64,000 bases of DNA from Clostridiaceae bacterium (GTDB lineage: Bacteria; Bacillota; Clostridia; Lachnospirales; Lachnospiraceae), in NCBI GenBank assembly GCA_009911065.1, contig QXWR01000001.1, positions 1 through 64,000 of the forward strand, in the 5' to 3' direction. Numbering within the stretch: position 1 is the first letter of the stretch; every line of letters begins with the position of its first letter. Shown here in pieces: positions 1 to 6,330 of the stretch. Under the pieces are notes generated by a model that saw only the letters and a list, made by a program, of their open reading frames with translations, did no database searches and had not been told where the DNA came from. The translations under genes and the position numbers were made by a program.

Positions 1-44
1 TGAGACGCTGGCCTAGCAACAAAGGGTTATACCCGTTCCACAAG

Positions 45-63
45 CCACCCGTTTTACGGGTGG
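45..63. repeat. Perfect inverted repeat inside the mobile element
   Basis: CCACCCGT (45-52) and ACGGGTGG (56-63) form an 8-bp stem with a 3-base loop. No T-run follows. It lies upstream of the recombinase unit and could end an upstream transcript or be a protein-binding site; the sequence does not decide. Confidence 0.5.
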
Positions 64-65
64 TA

Positions 66-94
66 TTGACTGAAACGTATCTCAAACATACATT
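66..94 (+). promoter_or_regulatory. Possible promoter for the small ORF-recombinase unit
   Basis: TTGACT (66-71) and TACATT (89-94) are separated by 17 bp, about 70 bases before the first start codon. The -10 is a 4/6 match only, so this is tentative. Confidence 0.3.
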
Positions 95-163
95 TCGATT
101 TTTCTGATTCATATTCTATTTTTCACCGGAATAGGTTGTAAAAAACATTGGGGCTTGTTTCAG

Positions 164-298
164 ATGGAAAAACAGAAAGAAACAAAAAAGCAAAAAGTAA
201 AAACATGGAGAATAATCCGGCGCTATCAATCTGAATTTTCCTGTCAGGAAGCAGTCAGACGATTGATTCAGGTTCATAAGGTTTTCAGAGAGGAGTAA
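164..298 (+). CDS. Small basic protein upstream of the serine recombinase
   Basis: A 44-residue ORF beginning ATG GAA AAA CAG and ending in a TAA whose last base overlaps the TAATG leading into the recombinase gene. The N-terminus is lysine/arginine rich and the C-terminal half contains EFSCQEAVRRLIQVHK, predicted helical. From memory, similar small ORFs with an EFSC-x-EA-x-RR core precede large serine recombinases in Clostridia mobile elements. The tight overlap suggests translational coupling and a role with the recombinase, for example a DNA-binding or excision accessory. The ribosome-binding site is weak. Function is inference. Confidence 0.6.
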   Translation: MEKQKETKKQKVKTWRIIRRYQSEFSCQEAVRRLIQVHKVFREE

Positions 299-300
299 TG

Positions 301-2013
301 ATGTCAGAAGGAAAAGAAAGATTTAGCTTACATAATTGCTATTTCCCAAAACAGTGGAGTGTAGGGATTTATGTCAGGCTTTCGGATGAGGACCGCGATA
401 AGAAAATGAAAACGGATTTGAGCCAGAGTATTAAAAATCAGACCGACTACTGCAAAGCCTTCATGGAAATTCTGAATAGCCAACCAGAGGAAAGATTTAA
501 ACTTGCTGAGTACAAGGTTTATTGTGATGACGACCAGACCGGAATGAATTTTGACCGCAACGGTTTTCGGGAGATGATGCGGGATGTGAAGGAAAATCGG
601 ATTGATTGTATTATTGTTAAAAATTTGTCCAGACTGGGGCGGTACGATACAGAGATGCAAAGGTATCTGGAAAAAGAGTTTGAGCAAAATGGCAGAGAAG
701 TCCGCCTGATTGCCATTGGCGATAATTATGACAGCTTATACAAAGAGCCAAGTATTGCAGATCGATTTCAGTTATTGATTAATCGGGAGTACTCTGAGCA
801 GCAGCATAGGAACGTTTGTATTGGTATGCATTCTATGCAGCGAAAAGGACTGTTTGTAGGGGCATTCGCCCCCTATGGTTATCAGAAAGATCCTGAAAAT
901 AAACACCATCTTATAGTTGATCCAACGGCTGCTATTGTGGTAGAGCGGATTTATGAGGAATATCTGAAAGGTATTTCACCAAAGGAAATCGCGGCTGGGC
1001 TGACCAGAGATGGAATCGTGAATCCAGCCACCTATAAGCGGCTTCATGGGTCAAATTTCAGATGCAGTAAAAAAATATCTGATGAAGAAGTCCATTGGCG
1101 CAGTGATGGGGTGAAAAAGATTCTAATGGATGAAACCTACACAGGGACACTGGTACAGCATAAGCAGGTGCAGAAAAAATTAACGGATGACAAGCCGACA
1201 CAAGTTGCCAAAAATCAGTGGATTCGCTGTGAAGGTACACATGAAGAGATCATTTCCAGGGAGCGATGGAAGATTGCCCAATCCATGATGAAAACAATTA
1301 AGCGGGATAGGACAAAAGAGGATGAGGTGACTATTTTTAAGGGGATATTAAAGTGCGGAGACTGTCGCCATGGGATGCGAAAAAAGTGGGACTCTTATAC
1401 ACAGCTTAAAACTGGTGAACCGGCGAAGTACTTATATTATAACTGTGCGACTTACCGCGATTACTGCCAGAATAAGAAACTTCTTGGAGAGAATGCTCCA
1501 AAGTGTACAAGCCATTATGTGTCAGATAAATTGCTTCGTGAGATTGTCATTGACGATTTGAATAAAATCATCCGTCAGGTAGAAAACTTAAGAGAACTGG
1601 CAGAGAAACATCAACAAACACCAAAGGCAGAGTTTTCTGGGGTTCGGCGTGAGATTGAGAACAAAAACAGGAGAATCCATCAGTACAGAGAGCGTTTACA
1701 AAGTGCCAGGTATTTGATGTATGACGGAACAATCAGTAAAGAGGAGTACGACAGTGATAAGAGGGCAATTCAGGCAGATATTGACCGTTTAAATAATGAA
1801 ATCAAGATGTTGCAAAAGTCCATTTCCAAGGTCAGTGATGTGCTTTCTAACCCGTGGGTAGAGAGGCTCTTGGAGAATGGCGTGATCACAGAACTTGATC
1901 GTGTTACAGTAGTGGAGTTTATTGATAAGATTTATGTGTATGAAAATAAGCATATTGAAATTGTCTATAAGTTCAGTGGAGAGTTTGACGGGTTGTTTAT
2001 TAAGTCCGTTTAA
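301..2013 (+). CDS. Large serine recombinase (site-specific integrase/transposase)
   Basis: About 570 residues. The N-terminal resolvase domain (roughly 20-170) has the catalytic serine in YVRLSDED and the KNLSRLGR motif. A recombinase domain follows (about 190-310, with FAPYGYQKDP), then a cysteine-rich zinc ribbon (CGDC...YYNC...C), a long coiled coil (about 430-510) and a C-terminal DUF4368-like segment ending near ELDRVTVVEFIDKIYVY. This architecture is that of TnpX-type recombinases which integrate and excise conjugative or mobilizable elements through a serine-DNA intermediate. The ATG at 301 is preferred over the one at 298 because AGGAG then sits 5 bases upstream. It is the penultimate gene before the chromosome junction, as expected for an element's terminal recombinase. 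Family assignment is secure; the element's type is not visible here. Confidence 0.95.
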   Translation: MSEGKERFSLHNCYFPKQWSVGIYVRLSDEDRDKKMKTDLSQSIKNQTDYCKAFMEILNSQPEERFKLAEYKVYCDDDQTGMNFDRNGFREMMRDVKENRIDCIIVKNLSRLGRYDTEMQRYLEKEFEQNGREVRLIAIGDNYDSLYKEPSIADRFQLLINREYSEQQHRNVCIGMHSMQRKGLFVGAFAPYGYQKDPENKHHLIVDPTAAIVVERIYEEYLKGISPKEIAAGLTRDGIVNPATYKRLHGSNFRCSKKISDEEVHWRSDGVKKILMDETYTGTLVQHKQVQKKLTDDKPTQVAKNQWIRCEGTHEEIISRERWKIAQSMMKTIKRDRTKEDEVTIFKGILKCGDCRHGMRKKWDSYTQLKTGEPAKYLYYNCATYRDYCQNKKLLGENAPKCTSHYVSDKLLREIVIDDLNKIIRQVENLRELAEKHQQTPKAEFSGVRREIENKNRRIHQYRERLQSARYLMYDGTISKEEYDSDKRAIQADIDRLNNEIKMLQKSISKVSDVLSNPWVERLLENGVITELDRVTVVEFIDKIYVYENKHIEIVYKFSGEFDGLFIKSV

Positions 2014-2038
2014 GCGTGTCAGTAAGATTTTAGACGAC

Positions 2039-2067
2039 TTGCAATATATCAGGCAGAATGTTATACT
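2039..2067 (+). promoter_or_regulatory. Sigma-A-type promoter for the unknown gene at the element end
   Basis: TTGCAA (2039-2044), 17 bp, TATACT (2062-2067), located just after the recombinase stop. It gives the next gene its own transcript. Confidence 0.55.
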
Positions 2068-2093
2068 TATATGGAAAGGGGAGTCATTTAGAA

Positions 2094-2573
2094 ATGACCC
2101 AAATGAAAGAACGTGTCGTGAATATTGTTCAGAGGCTTCCAGACGATAAGACCATTTCGCAGCTTGCTTACCAGGATCTGCAAAAATACAGAAAAGAGGG
2201 AGTGCAGGAAATAAACGATAAAGAGGAACTTGCACAGGCATTGGAGGAAGAATTTGATGAGTTAAGAAAGGAGTGTGGGATAGCCATGCCAGAAATGCGC
2301 GAAAAGAATGGGATTATTTATTTCGACAAACCTTATAAGACCACATTAGTGTCCTGGGTATTAGAACATGAGTTATGCGACAGCTTGGTTTTAGATAAAG
2401 AGGAGTTAATTGATGGTGGCTGTGACGAGTGGATCTATGTCCGTTGCTACGCCAGGAGCAGGGAATATAATAACCGCTTATATTCTGATGTATATTTGTC
2501 AGAACTAAAAAACGAGGGATTGAGAGTGCTGTATGGCTCTGGATGTCAGCAGGAGGTAGCTTATATTGATTAG
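2094..2573 (+). CDS. Unrecognised 159-residue protein at the right end of the mobile element
   Basis: I do not recognise this protein. The start at 2094 is chosen because AAGGGGAG (2076-2083) lies 10 bases upstream. The first about 65 residues are charged and helical (MTQMKERVVNIVQRLPDDK, then an acidic EELAQALEEEFDELRKE stretch). The second half is mixed alpha/beta with many aromatic residues (GIIYFDKPYK, DEWIYVRCYAR, RLYSDVYLSEL). No signal peptide, membrane segment or cysteine cluster is present. It sits between the recombinase and the junction with the amidase gene, so it is probably element cargo or an accessory such as a directionality or immunity factor. That role is only inferred from position. 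Confidence 0.6.
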   Translation: MTQMKERVVNIVQRLPDDKTISQLAYQDLQKYRKEGVQEINDKEELAQALEEEFDELRKECGIAMPEMREKNGIIYFDKPYKTTLVSWVLEHELCDSLVLDKEELIDGGCDEWIYVRCYARSREYNNRLYSDVYLSELKNEGLRVLYGSGCQQEVAYID

Positions 2574-2662
2574 AGCATTGTACAGCGAAAGCAGACGTTC
2601 ATTTTCTGTAAATGTCGCATTGACAGCAAATAAAGAATACCTTTTTGGGTCTGTTCCCGCCT
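2574..2662 (+). other. Right junction of the mobile element with the chromosome (attachment site region)
   Basis: Downstream of 2573 there is no coding signal until reading frame homology to an amidase starts abruptly at CCTGGTCATGGAGG (about 2651-2664), which encodes the PGHGG zinc-ligand motif. In related amidases the codons before this motif encode a beta strand ending in I-D; here they encode LFPP, which is unrelated. The crossover therefore falls within or just before that string. The exact core cannot be set without the left junction, which lies outside the window. Confidence 0.6.
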
Positions 2663-3220
2663 CCTGGTCATGGAGGAAATGATCCGGGGAAAGTGGGTGT
2701 GGACGGAAGCCTGGAAAAAGATATTAATCTGGAGATTGCAAAGAAGTTGAAAGCATATTTGGAGGCGTCAGACGTGGAAGTGGTTATGACGCGGGAAGTG
2801 GACAAAGGGCTTTATGGGGAGAAGGACAGCCGGAAAAAAATGGCAGATATGAAAAAACGTTGTGATCTGATTAATGAGACAAAACCAGAGCTGGTGGTCA
2901 GCATTCATCAGAACAGTTATCATGAGGAAAATGTTTCTGGAGGTCAGGTATTTTACTACAAGGACTCAGAAAAGGGGAAGGAATTGGCGGAGATTCTCCA
3001 AAAACGTTTTGATTTTGTCCTGGGGGAGAAGAATAAGAGATTGGCGAAGCCAAATGGAAATTATTATCTTCTGCTTCATGTGAAACAGCCGATTGTGATT
3101 GTGGAGTGCGGTTTTTTGTCAAACTGGAAAGAGGCGAAAGCTTTAAATACAGAAGATTATCAAGATCGAATGGCATGGACGATTCATATGGGAATCATGG
3201 AATATTTGAATCATCAATGA
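2645..3220 (+). CDS. cwlD: N-acetylmuramoyl-L-alanine amidase (CwlD-like), 5' end cut off by the mobile element
   Basis: Amidase_3 domain that cleaves the amide bond between muramic acid and the stem peptide. Visible are the first zinc histidine in GHGGNDPGK, the following Glu-containing helix (LEKDINLEIAKKL), the second histidine in SIHQNSYHEE, the FYYKDSEKG strand and the catalytic glutamate in IVECGFLSN. All catalytic residues are kept, but the signal/membrane anchor and first beta strand (about 30-45 residues in family members) are missing. The frame can be opened only by a TTG at 2645 with no ribosome-binding site, so this is a fragment rather than a complete gene. CwlD makes muramic delta-lactam in spore cortex; the subfamily call is from similarity of the visible part and is moderately certain. 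Confidence 0.8.
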   Translation: MGLFPPPGHGGNDPGKVGVDGSLEKDINLEIAKKLKAYLEASDVEVVMTREVDKGLYGEKDSRKKMADMKKRCDLINETKPELVVSIHQNSYHEENVSGGQVFYYKDSEKGKELAEILQKRFDFVLGEKNKRLAKPNGNYYLLLHVKQPIVIVECGFLSNWKEAKALNTEDYQDRMAWTIHMGIMEYLNHQ

Positions 3221-3404: not shown

Positions 3405-4988
3405 CTAAAGATTATTAAACACTACGGTTTCCTTCTCCAATCCCTCCACTACTTCCTGATTGATTCCCATGCGTTGTGTAATATCCTCCATATCATCGGC
3501 AAGATTTCTTGTATTGCCAGCCACACCAGAGATGCCGTTTGCCCCCTGGTCAATGACTTTTGTGATGGTGCTGATAGAATCTGCAATTTCGGACATGGAG
3601 TTTTTCAGGTGTTCGGTCCGCTTTTGAAATTCATCCATAGTTTGACGGATATAGGCAGCATCTTCTTTATACTGACTGCCGGATTTTACAAATTCCTGAA
3701 ATTCCGTGAGGACAGACTGGCTCATGTAATCAACCAGTTGCTGTGCGTTTTCAGAAAGATTGTATACAGCAGAAGTGACGATACGGTTGACATCCTGGAT
3801 ACGGTTGGCGGTTTCCTGGCTGGAATGAGCCAGATTGCGTACTTCGCTGGCAACAATGGCAAACCCTTTCCCGGCAGCTCCGGCATTGGCAGCTTCCACG
3901 GAAGCATTCAGAGCAATCAGCCGGGTTTGCTGACAGATGTTAAGAATGTCGCTGGTCAGTATTTGAATCTGATCCACACTTTTGCTTTTTTCAATGGCAT
4001 CGTTAAGGGTGTGGAGAATTTCATTTGCTTTGGCGTTGGTAATTTCCGCACTTTTTTGGGCGGATTGCTGCATGGTATTGGCGCGGGCATTCATCTCAAC
4101 CGTATAAGCGGTGATGGCGCTGCACTCTTTTGCAATATTTTCCACATCGGATTGGACATCCACCGTGTTGTCATTGATGGCAGATACACTGCCAGCTACC
4201 TCCTGAATGGTCGCGGACATCTGCTCTGCAAGAATAGAAAGGCTGGCAGCGCTGCCTTTGGAAGCCTGGGTTCTTTTAAGGACTTCGCCTGTCATGTTGT
4301 TAATGCGCCCGGAACTTTCCTGAATGGTTTTTAAAATGTTTTTCACCGGAATTACCACATGCTTGTTAATCAGATTCAATGCTGCAAACACCAGAAAAAT
4401 GCAGGCAATGACAGAAGCAGAGCCTCCTGCTATGGATATCATATACACGATAGAAAGGTGCATCCTTGCTTTGGAGGTCTGTTCCTGGATGGATGCGTTT
4501 AGAGTATCAATATCATTTTCCATGGCAGAAGCAGCGGAAGCGACATCTCCATTTGCCAGTGCATAGGCGTCCTGAGTCTTGTGGCTTGCGCTGGCGCAGA
4601 CCAGATGGACCAAGGCATGTTTGAAAGAGTCATAATGGGACAGAAGCTGTTCGTATTGGTTTTGATCTTTTGATATGACATGATACTCATATTTAGCAAG
4701 CATATCATCCAAAACAGCTTCCTCTTCCTTGATCTGCTGAACCAGTGTGATCATGGTGTCATAGTCCGTGGCCACAATGTGGCTTAGGGCCATTTTATGT
4801 ATATTCATGGAAGCCTGACAGATCTCTGCCAGCTGGCTTTTTCCTTCCATGTAATTGTCTGCAATGTTGGCAGCACTTGCATTTACATTATGAATGTTAA
4901 TAAAAGAAAGAAGGTTTGATAAAAGGGCTACAATACCTAAAAGGGCGACCGGTATAATCAAACGATGTTTTAAACTGATATTTTTCAT
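3405..4988 (-). CDS. Methyl-accepting chemotaxis protein
   Basis: A 527-residue membrane chemoreceptor. A short cytoplasmic start is followed by a membrane segment (about 12-31), an extracellular helical domain of about 150 residues resembling four-helix-bundle sensors, a second membrane segment (about 183-205) and a cytoplasmic coiled coil. The signalling tip reads [17 protein letters not shown] followed by [15 protein letters not shown], the region that contacts CheA/CheW in this family. The HAMP region is short and poorly conserved. GGAG lies 10 bases before the ATG. It follows an orphan sugar-binding lipoprotein gene on the same strand after an 84-base gap, so the pair may be cotranscribed, with the lipoprotein presenting ligand to the receptor (inference). 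No che or flagellar genes are in the window. Confidence 0.93.
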
Positions 4989-5072
4989 TACGGCTGCTAC
5001 TCCTTTTTTGTCTCCTGGGATATTTTTCGGAGATCAGAGTCGGTTTGGAAATAAAGTTCTCTTTACAGGGTA

Positions 5073-6314
5073 TTAGGGAGCAATAATGCCCTCTACCATA
5101 AGGTCAAGCTGTTCCTGAAGGCTTTCTCCGGAAGGATTCCCGGCCAGAATGTTTTCTGTAAATTCTGCCACTGGCTCCCAAAAATTCCCGCCGATTCGCT
5201 GGAGACAGGAAAATTCGGACTGTTCCAGCAATGCGGCAATCGCCGGTGAGCTTTGCACTTCATTTGAGGCGGCGGCATTTTTGTTGGCTGGTCCCTGTCC
5301 CCGCAGCATAAAGCGAAGCTTTTGATTTTCTTCGTTTGCAATCCACTCTGCCAGTTTGGCCGCCCATTCCCTGTGTTTGGAATAGGCATTTACCCCGATT
5401 AACTTGTATCCGGAGAAAGAGGTCATTTGAACTTGCTGTCCGGCACAGGTATAGGAGGGAAGCTTTGCAGCAGCAAAATTTTGTCCCCAGGTATCTTTAA
5501 TCGCTACAGCATTCCAGACTCCGTTAATGCCTGCAATAATGGTTCCGTTTTTTACTCCTTCCATAAAACCGGCATCATCTATGCTGACAAATCCAGGGTG
5601 TTTTGCCATGTCAGTCATGGCCTGAGCTACATCGGTTCCTTTTATCTTGCCCTCTGTGCTGTTCCAGGTGCAGTAATTGGTGATTCCGTCGTTATTCAGT
5701 CCAAGGGTAAGTCCGGTGCCGCCAAACAGAGCATATACATACCATCCGGAAGACCATTCCATGGAAACTTTTTTTCCGTGTTCCGCAGCAATTTCAAGCA
5801 TTTGATCCCAGGACTGAATGTCTTCCTCAGAAAAATAGCTCTTATTATAATAAAGAAAATATCCATTATCTGCTGTCAAAGGCAGGGCATATAAGGTGTC
5901 ATTTACACAGGCGGCCTGAACGGCTTCCGGAATGTTTGACTGCCGGAATAGATCTGCATTTTCTACGGGTTCCAATGCTCCGGCAGCTACTAAGGTGTTT
6001 AGCTGGTCATCGGCAAATGCAAATACGTCTGCGCCATTTTCCAGATCTTCCATCAATGCGTCGGTGCAGTGGCTTTCGCTTTGAGGCTGATAGTTAATGA
6101 CAAAATTTGCCTGTCCCCGGTACTGATTCTGAAATTCATCCATGATTTGACGCAGCAGCTCTTCATCTTCCGCAGCGCCCCAAACAGTCAAATTGACTGT
6201 GTCAGAAGCAGAAGGGGAAGGGTCTTTTGATGGTTTTGGACTGTTTTTCTGGCATCCGGATAGGAATACAGCCAACAAAAGGGCGGGGAGCCATAGATTC
6301 ATCTTTATTCTCAT
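5073..6314 (-). CDS. Extracellular sugar-binding lipoprotein (ABC-type family 1 solute-binding protein)
   Basis: About 413 residues. The start at 6314 (MRIKMNLWLPALLL) has GGAG 6 bases upstream and gives a clean lipoprotein signal peptide with lipobox LSGC; a TTG 15 bases further upstream is possible but has no site. The mature protein begins with a Ser/Pro-rich linker, then LTVWGAAEDEELL and the typical maltodextrin-binding-protein fold (GADVFAFADDQLNTLVAAGAL; NDTLYALPLTADN; WAAKLAEWIANEENQ). Family 1 binding proteins carry oligosaccharides to an ABC permease, but no permease or ATPase gene is adjacent. Instead a chemoreceptor follows. Ligand cannot be read from sequence. Confidence 0.9.
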   Translation of the reverse strand: MRIKMNLWLPALLLAVFLSGCQKNSPKPSKDPSPSASDTVNLTVWGAAEDEELLRQIMDEFQNQYRGQANFVINYQPQSESHCTDALMEDLENGADVFAFADDQLNTLVAAGALEPVENADLFRQSNIPEAVQAACVNDTLYALPLTADNGYFLYYNKSYFSEEDIQSWDQMLEIAAEHGKKVSMEWSSGWYVYALFGGTGLTLGLNNDGITNYCTWNSTEGKIKGTDVAQAMTDMAKHPGFVSIDDAGFMEGVKNGTIIAGINGVWNAVAIKDTWGQNFAAAKLPSYTCAGQQVQMTSFSGYKLIGVNAYSKHREWAAKLAEWIANEENQKLRFMLRGQGPANKNAAASNEVQSSPAIAALLEQSEFSCLQRIGGNFWEPVAEFTENILAGNPSGESLQEQLDLMVEGIIAP

Positions 6315-6330
6315 AACTTTCTCCGTCAAG

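Follow-up and report, generated by a model that had tools for sequence, protein, structure and literature searches.

The gene cwlD, which is needed for spores able to germinate, is found in two pieces in the genome of a Clostridiaceae bacterium of the GTDB family Lachnospiraceae (GCA_009911065.1), and it is well supported by the sequence comparisons below that the pieces are separated by an integrated recombinase element that can be removed precisely. The stretch analysed, called here the window, is the first 64 kb (64,000 nucleotides) of contig C108 (QXWR01000001.1) of this assembly (G000; 284 contigs). It is quite probable that the element is a non-phage, skin-like one of about 5.4 kb, which is excised from cwlD by its recombinase in the sporulating mother cell with restoration of the gene. 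Its integration is shown by the presence of both gene halves, matching junctions, in-frame rejoining, the failure to find a second cwlD, and the same site and geometry in relatives.

The features of the window are as follows.

2669-3220, + strand: cwlD, 3' portion, beginning with the His codon and ending with the stop codon, with TIGR02883 and Amidase_3 matches
2669-2670, + strand: predicted crossover dinucleotide CA in the first zinc-ligand His codon (from arm symmetry)
2648-2683, + strand: attachment site attR, consisting of the element-side arm GGTCTGT (2648-2654) and the 18-bp core GGTCATGGAGGAAATGAT (2666-2683)
298-2013, + strand: large serine recombinase of 571 amino acids (aa), with Pfam Resolvase, Recombinase, and Zn_ribbon_recom matches above cut-off
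164-298, + strand: small open reading frame (ORF) of 44 aa, its stop overlapping the recombinase start
109-137, + strand: promoter-like, sigma-E-like pair of TCATATT (109-115) and AATAGGTT (130-137) with a 14-bp spacer
2058-2573, + strand: ORF of 171 aa within the element, without a family match
1-71, strand not given: end of an inserted repeat; the identical 71 bases terminate ten other contigs of the assembly

The two halves of cwlD

The initial annotation, made from the window alone, described an amidase frame that starts abruptly at its first zinc-ligand motif, is undamaged to its stop, and is preceded within 650 bases by a large serine recombinase, and all of this was borne out. The frame is open from 2624 to the stop codon at 3218-3220, and about 0.6 kb separates it from the recombinase stop. 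It covers positions 7-189 of the CwlD model TIGR02883 with 204.6 bits, below the cut-off of 221.55, a value higher than the scores of all split copies and also of the intact gene of the same-genus genome G172 (206.1 bits), and its Amidase_3 match begins at position 5. Among the same-family matches listed, most show homology from query residue 5-8, with the frame continuing upstream (typically 230-280 codons); because the homologue frames extend past the start of homology, the window copy is cut at the GHGG motif.

The missing 5' half, which the initial annotation had expected at the other end of the element, was located on contig C252. A degenerate coding pattern for VxDxGHG had one match genome-wide, at C252:12860, and none when read backwards. 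The 5' half occupies C252:12731-12876 (up to 12874 if counted to the junction at the His codon), is followed by the left end of the element, and contains a start codon, a membrane-like segment (by eye), and the end ...KPVVVIDSGHGGND, with a stop 16 codons past the start of GHGG. The preceding gene on C252 encodes a GH18 protein (Pfam Glyco_hydro_18), a homologue of which also precedes cwlD in G172 and in other relatives. A metallophosphoesterase-like gene (named by eye), which is upstream of cwlD in locus L023, was tried as the upstream marker and had no match in the window genome; the correct marker is the GH18 gene.

When the halves are joined at the His codon, a complete in-frame CwlD is obtained that aligns over its full length with intact relatives, as had been foreseen for the excised form. 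The same holds for 11 of 11 joined loci, which rebuild full-length CwlD without stops or frameshifts in alignment with six intact relatives; in ten joined genomes both ends are on a single contig, the elements there measuring 1.9-6.6 kb. In G172 cwlD is an uninterrupted frame of 235 codons. A second intact cwlD, which would have refuted the initial annotation, was not found in the window genome, where the split copy reaches 204 bits and the next TIGR02883 match (a 320-codon amidase frame) 148 bits. In each of the 16 split genomes tested it is the truncated copy that matches CwlD best (164.7-208.4 bits, starting at model position 4-9), and the TIGR02883 search of these genomes gave no other amidase above 151 bits.

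One element on two contigs

Window position 1 is the end of C108, and this contig break falls inside the element at a multi-copy repeat, of which positions 1-71 form one end and which, judging from its hairpin, is presumably IS200/IS605-like. The end of C252 and the start of C108 represent the two ends of apparently one such repeat; both are also present, turned round, on contig C19. The repeat is inserted about 40 bp before the promoter-like motif. Locus L092, a 3.9-kb contig from a related Lachnospiraceae metagenome-assembled genome (MAG), is without the repeat and joins C252:15669 to window position 71, with 96% identity to C252:13843-15669 and gapless continuation into C108:71-2044 at 98%. 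Because L092 bridges the two contigs, both arms are assigned to one element of 2,795 + 2,598 bases (about 5.4 kb), to which the single inserted repeat has to be added. Two proteins, both with a signal-like start (by eye), are encoded in the left arm, and a choline-binding repeat forms the end of one of them.

Attachment sites and predicted crossover

The matching att core sought by the initial annotation is the 18-bp sequence common to both junctions, which recurs at C252:12872-12889 around the first zinc-ligand His codon; in the window the recombinase stands beside one attachment site, with the attR core at 2666. In the attP rebuilt by fusing the element ends, GGTCTGT and ACAGACC are each 21 nt from CA. 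The arm letters are complementary at 6-7 of 7 positions in all eight rebuilt sites of the clade of closest recombinases described below, and in a slid-centre control 3 of 240 reached at least 5 of 7. The sequence shared by the junctions is 18 bases in the window genome; among the ten other joined loci its length varies between 2 bases (CA, in G396) and 12. According to the arm symmetry and to CA being the shortest common junction sequence, the crossover is predicted to occur at this CA, within the His codon.

Recombinase and other ORFs of the element

Besides its three Pfam matches the recombinase has a DUF4368 match slightly under cut-off (23.5 versus 25 bits). The 44-aa ORF, located between the promoter-like motif and the recombinase, is kept in 8 of 8 aligned loci, is duplicated in L093, and has a look-alike in G032 (by eye); a search of NCBIfam gave no match for it. 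Its structure model, two helices with a mean predicted local distance difference test score of 65.4 and a predicted template modelling score of 0.30, was not interpretable and was discarded. From its position the 44-aa protein is probably the likeliest candidate for a directionality factor; position has to serve for this assignment because in PMC5025042 such factors of serine recombinases are said to share no significant sequence similarity.

The 171-aa ORF is similar to rearranged cargo pieces adjoining the recombinase in G111. No phage structural gene was recognised among the ORFs of seven clade elements and of both arms of the window element, some of which were scanned with hidden Markov models (HMM), and no conjugation gene was recognised among the clade elements, in contrast to the related recombinase in G027, beside which the conjugative-transposon protein TcpC is encoded. 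Phage, plasmid, and viral-contig collections held no relative of the recombinase above 34% identity (phage and plasmid searches at E 1e-50).

Near attR, PIN-domain or DUF4258 proteins are encoded at L054 7411-7956, L100 9071-9460, and L093 11820-12134. PIN proteins belong to the elements of G111 and L100, and DUF4258 to that of L093; perhaps they are toxin-antitoxin modules that stabilise cwlD elements.

Recurrence in related genomes

Three aligned recombinases were used as the query in a scan of one genome per species from 84,980 species, and 80 of 111 relatives were kept. The 14 closest recombinases (L092-L105; 54-98% identity), which together with that of the window form the clade, come from Lachnospiraceae, Clostridiaceae, Clostridium, and Clostridiales among others; L096 is a contig of G111, whose element measures 3.1 kb, and L101 a contig of G274. 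The recombinase is followed by a cwlD 3' part in 12 of these 14 loci, and the two exceptions run off their contigs, L092 ending 34 bp after the recombinase and L104 inside it. With the window included, 13 clade loci thus carry a cwlD 3' part, and the 3' parts read are open to their stops. Eight of the 13 also have the 5' half; in L094, L097, L101, and L102 the contig ends first. In the clade maps read there is one recombinase per element. Two different clade recombinase copies, L097 and L104, are on two contigs of one MAG (MGG03618).

Outside the clade, the element of G032 is 1.9 kb long, and its main gene encodes a recombinase 32% identical to that of the window. In G027, G142, and G152 related recombinases directly precede a cut cwlD; TcpC is encoded nearby in G027, and a Lysozyme_like-NLPC_P60 protein is common to G027 and G152. 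In a sample of the family 258 of 397 genomes had a cwlD match at E 1e-20, and the gene is cut at the motif in at least 10 of the 258, namely, the window genome, G111, G274, G032, G105, G396, G176, G027, G142, and G152. A CwlD-like 3' part near the recombinase was detected by BLAST in 13 of the 66 other scan loci. Three of them tested by HMM (L111, L112, and L117) match TIGR02883 from model position 7-8 under the cut-off, and a candidate 5' half was seen in L138 and L171, which are outside the 11 joined loci. L160 was dropped as a split, since its amidase has its own complete start.

On a tree of 64 recombinases the label cwlD requires 13 changes, with a shuffled mean of 19.6; the tree left out 28 of the 80 loci besides clade duplicates (including L102, L104, L122, L147, L166, L168, and L171), L092 was labelled "other" since its contig ends, and distant rows were labelled via BLAST or by eye. 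Because of these 13 changes a single origin of cwlD targeting was rejected. In G141 a different amidase is cut at the same motif. These comparisons indicate that several integrase lineages meet the GHGG motif of amidases.

The synonymous divergence (dS) of the recombinase is far below that of its surroundings: 0.34 versus 1.95 for the cwlD 3' part between the window genome and L094, 0.17 versus 1.82 between L097 and L105, and 0.49 versus 2.61 for the GH18 flank between the window genome and L093. Therefore the element seems to move horizontally between species into the same codon. Recurrence in many genomes, small size, and interspecies movement go beyond what the initial annotation had foreseen.

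Host sporulation genes and constraint on cwlD

Sigma-E matches are above cut-off in the window genome, in G172, and in all of the further 15 split genomes that were tested. In the window genome SpoIVA is above cut-off as well, a SigK-type protein is above one of two cut-offs, and a PdaA-type protein reaches 296.1 bits versus a cut-off of 298. Judged from its sigma-E and SpoIVA genes the window host is probably a spore former.

The ratio of nonsynonymous to synonymous divergence (dN/dS) was estimated for six split 3' parts and 11 intact genes (12 were given, and the motif was unrecognised in one), pairs with dS of at least 2.5 or undefined being dropped. The median was 0.051 for split-split pairs (10 of 15 pairs), 0.094 for intact-intact pairs (27 of 55), and 0.109 for split-intact pairs (29 of 66), so that split 3' parts do not exceed intact genes in dN/dS. 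Dating of the insertion by dN/dS was rejected: dS is saturated in many pairs, the recombinases are younger than their surroundings, and, as the element seems to spread horizontally, constraint on cwlD gives no arrival date.

Promoter-like motif

The motif TCATATT-N14-AATAGGTT, 189 bp upstream of the recombinase, may represent a sigma-E-type promoter upstream of the small ORF and the recombinase. It is the sole match to the strict pattern in the window, where 0.06 are expected and at least one occurs in 6 of 100 shuffles. Of 13 clade loci examined, 11 show a relaxed pattern, between -188 and -234, as does G032, with a background of 12 in 530 stretches; the exact pattern also occurs in L102 and L104. 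The clade loci without the relaxed pattern are L101, with TCATTAA-N14-CATAATTT at -196, and L103, with TCATTAC-N14-CATAACCT at -178. In C. difficile the -35 region of sigma-E promoters carries ATA and cwlD is sigma-E-controlled, according to PMC3789822.

Proposed mechanism and alternative explanations

The element has inserted itself into cwlD at the codon for the first zinc-ligand His. In the proposed course of events the putative sigma-E-type promoter would switch on the recombinase and the small ORF in the mother cell during sporulation, the cell in which cwlD is transcribed in C. difficile, and the large serine recombinase would then recombine attL with attR at the central CA dinucleotide. 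The element would leave as a circle and the complete cwlD frame would be rebuilt. Thus the gene would be repaired only in the cell that will die, and the spore would keep the element. Mother-cell-specific excision appears to be the most likely mode in view of the motif, the host, and the analogy with known elements.

With about even chances, the zinc-ligand codon of cwlD may further be a recurrent landing site for very small, horizontally spreading, sporulation-specific DNA introns. Such an intron would need little more than its recombinase, a small protein as partner, and a promoter active in the mother cell (down to the 1.9 kb of G032), and its cost in a germination gene would be low, as removal would be confined to the dying cell; the elements of G105 and G396 would need a recombinase in trans.

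Several observations weigh against the skin-like explanation. The score of the promoter-like motif is not exceptional for a 300-bp stretch, and the relaxed pattern occurs in none of four loci that are integrative-and-conjugative-element-like or related (L073-L076) and in 1 of 13 distant loci. Within the same genome the strict pattern is absent before the spoIVA, GH18, cwlD, SigK-type, and PdaA-type genes; a looser search before spoIVA gave TGATAAA-N14-CATATGCT with a score of 13, which is reached by 41 of 426 background stretches. The window-genome assembly contains no rejoined cwlD, the degenerate pattern having matched C252 alone. In L098 there is no 5' half within 10 kb to the left, and in G105 and G396 cwlD is split by 6.6 and 3.1 kb, respectively, with no recognised recombinase within the element. 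Finally, given the movement between species, the intact halves may reflect recent arrival.

The foremost alternative, which is nevertheless unlikely, is an ordinary site-specific mobile islet with its att site in the conserved stretch of cwlD that codes for GHGG, so that the gene is inactivated throughout a lineage, excision is rare and unregulated, and carriers make poorly germinating spores or none. Such an islet would agree with horizontal movement into the same codon, with the cuts at this motif in other amidases of distant bacteria (G141, L118, and L133), and with cwlD cut beside recombinases of conjugative-transposon-like elements (TcpC in G027). Against it, neither a stop nor a frameshift interrupts any of the 11 joined genes, the 13 clade 3' parts read are open to their stops, the split 3' parts have a dN/dS not above that of intact genes, the sigma-E-like promoter is conserved upstream of the recombinase, and the hosts retain sigma-E.

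Rather improbable is a phase-variation switch, by which the element would leave and re-enter at a low rate in growing cells and keep a mixed population with cwlD on and off regardless of sporulation. In PMC10747680, yin in yabG of C. botulinum is described as both integrated and excised within one pure culture, and the possible stabilising modules of some elements (PIN in G111 and L100; DUF4258 in L093) would also fit such a switch. Against this stand the promoter type, which favours sporulation timing, and, as a weak argument since assemblies collapse minor forms, the lack of a rejoined junction in the assembly. An assembly artefact, in which C252 and C108 would be unrelated and the split a misjoin, might be suspected from the contig break at a multi-copy repeat within the element and from the quoted contamination of 6.23%, but it is hardly credible, since L092 bridges the contigs and ten other genomes show the split with both ends on one contig.

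If excision by the recombinase in the mother cell is correct, spore germinability in a number of gut Lachnospiraceae depends on a DNA rearrangement. Where cwlD needs excision, spores of these gut commensals would be germinable only through the action of a recombinase with its directionality factor, a dependence of consequence for spread between hosts and for culturing from spores. In addition, directionality control could be studied in the many serine recombinase systems of this family, which are small and divergent and have clear att sites.

Relation to known intervening elements

In structure the element belongs, as judged from sequence, with the skin-like group: it has a split gene, a recombinase, and an att core with arms, and there is no second gene copy. 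Like skin in sigK of B. subtilis and C. difficile, whose precise excision restores sigK, it is an element with a large serine recombinase that splits a sporulation gene. Unlike skin, it targets cwlD, measures 1.9-6.6 kb where measured, and has no recognised phage gene in the ORFs read. In C. difficile excision of skin is confined to the mother cell via the small sigma-E-controlled protein CD1234 (PMC5025042), whereas here the promoter-like motif precedes the small ORF and the recombinase jointly and excision is inferred.

According to PMC5595907, gin in gerE of B. cereus ATCC10987 is a non-prophage element with the serine recombinase GirC and the small factor GirX, expressed in sporulation, and comprises 28.6 kb, 31 genes, and three recombinases. 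The present element is likewise a non-prophage intervening element with a serine recombinase and a small candidate factor, but its target differs, and the clade maps read show a single recombinase in each element. The elements SP-beta in spsM, vfbin in spoVFB, and yin in yabG, which PMC10747680 describes as prophage or prophage-like, also intervene in sporulation genes and differ in the target; the term amidase is absent from the text of that paper. No description of an element in cwlD was found in the open-licence PMC full texts, which leave subscription papers and preprints uncovered. Hence the kind of element is known (skin, SP-beta, vfbin, gin, and yin), while the cwlD target, the small size, and the recurrence appear to be new.

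The closest name-annotated matches of the recombinase are TndX proteins on enterococcal plasmids, with about 30% identity across 94% of the protein length; in PDB a TnpX domain was matched, and the best match overall was the SP-beta integrase YokA. TndX/TnpX-type recombinases, which we take to belong to Tn5397 and Tn4451-like elements, are thus of remote kinship only.

Neighbouring genes and additional observations

In the window a chemotaxis receptor gene and one for a solute-binding protein (3405-6329) separate cwlD from the TSCPD and PNP_UDP_1-family genes, which in G111 directly follow cwlD. The splits with no recognised recombinase are at the same codon, at 6280-9351 of L173 (G396, reverse strand) and 1264-7860 of L082 (G105); a similar secreted protein is encoded in both segments (by eye), and that of G396 also encodes a Spo0A_C-domain protein. 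A search of small "phage" records for excised forms gave five matches, of which the two that were read (L187 and L188) hold tandem recombinases and not cwlD elements.

In uncultured Bacilli-type genomes LysM-repeat Amidase_3 proteins begin abruptly at the HGG motif right behind a serine recombinase (L118 and L133, HMM-tested), and an Amidase_3 start of the same kind after a serine recombinase was noted by eye in L125, L126, L131, L135, and L151. In L137 (11618-12040, - strand), L146 (7515-7940, - strand), and L154 a distance of 15-25 bp separates the end of a related recombinase from a manganese-catalase-like ORF, presumably CotJC; this ORF spans the first half of the family profile alone in L137 and L146 (L154 by eye), and it is possibly another split gene, for the spore coat. 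In L110 (11753-12154, HMM) and L169 (by eye) a recombinase belonging to this broad family has the 3' part of an ABC-transporter ATPase gene behind it. Another split gene is possibly represented by PRK06851-type ORFs right behind recombinases in L145 (5941-6765; Caloramator proteoclasticus) and L155 (11557-12432; an Alkaliphilus MAG), which are without approximately the first 80 positions of the profile.

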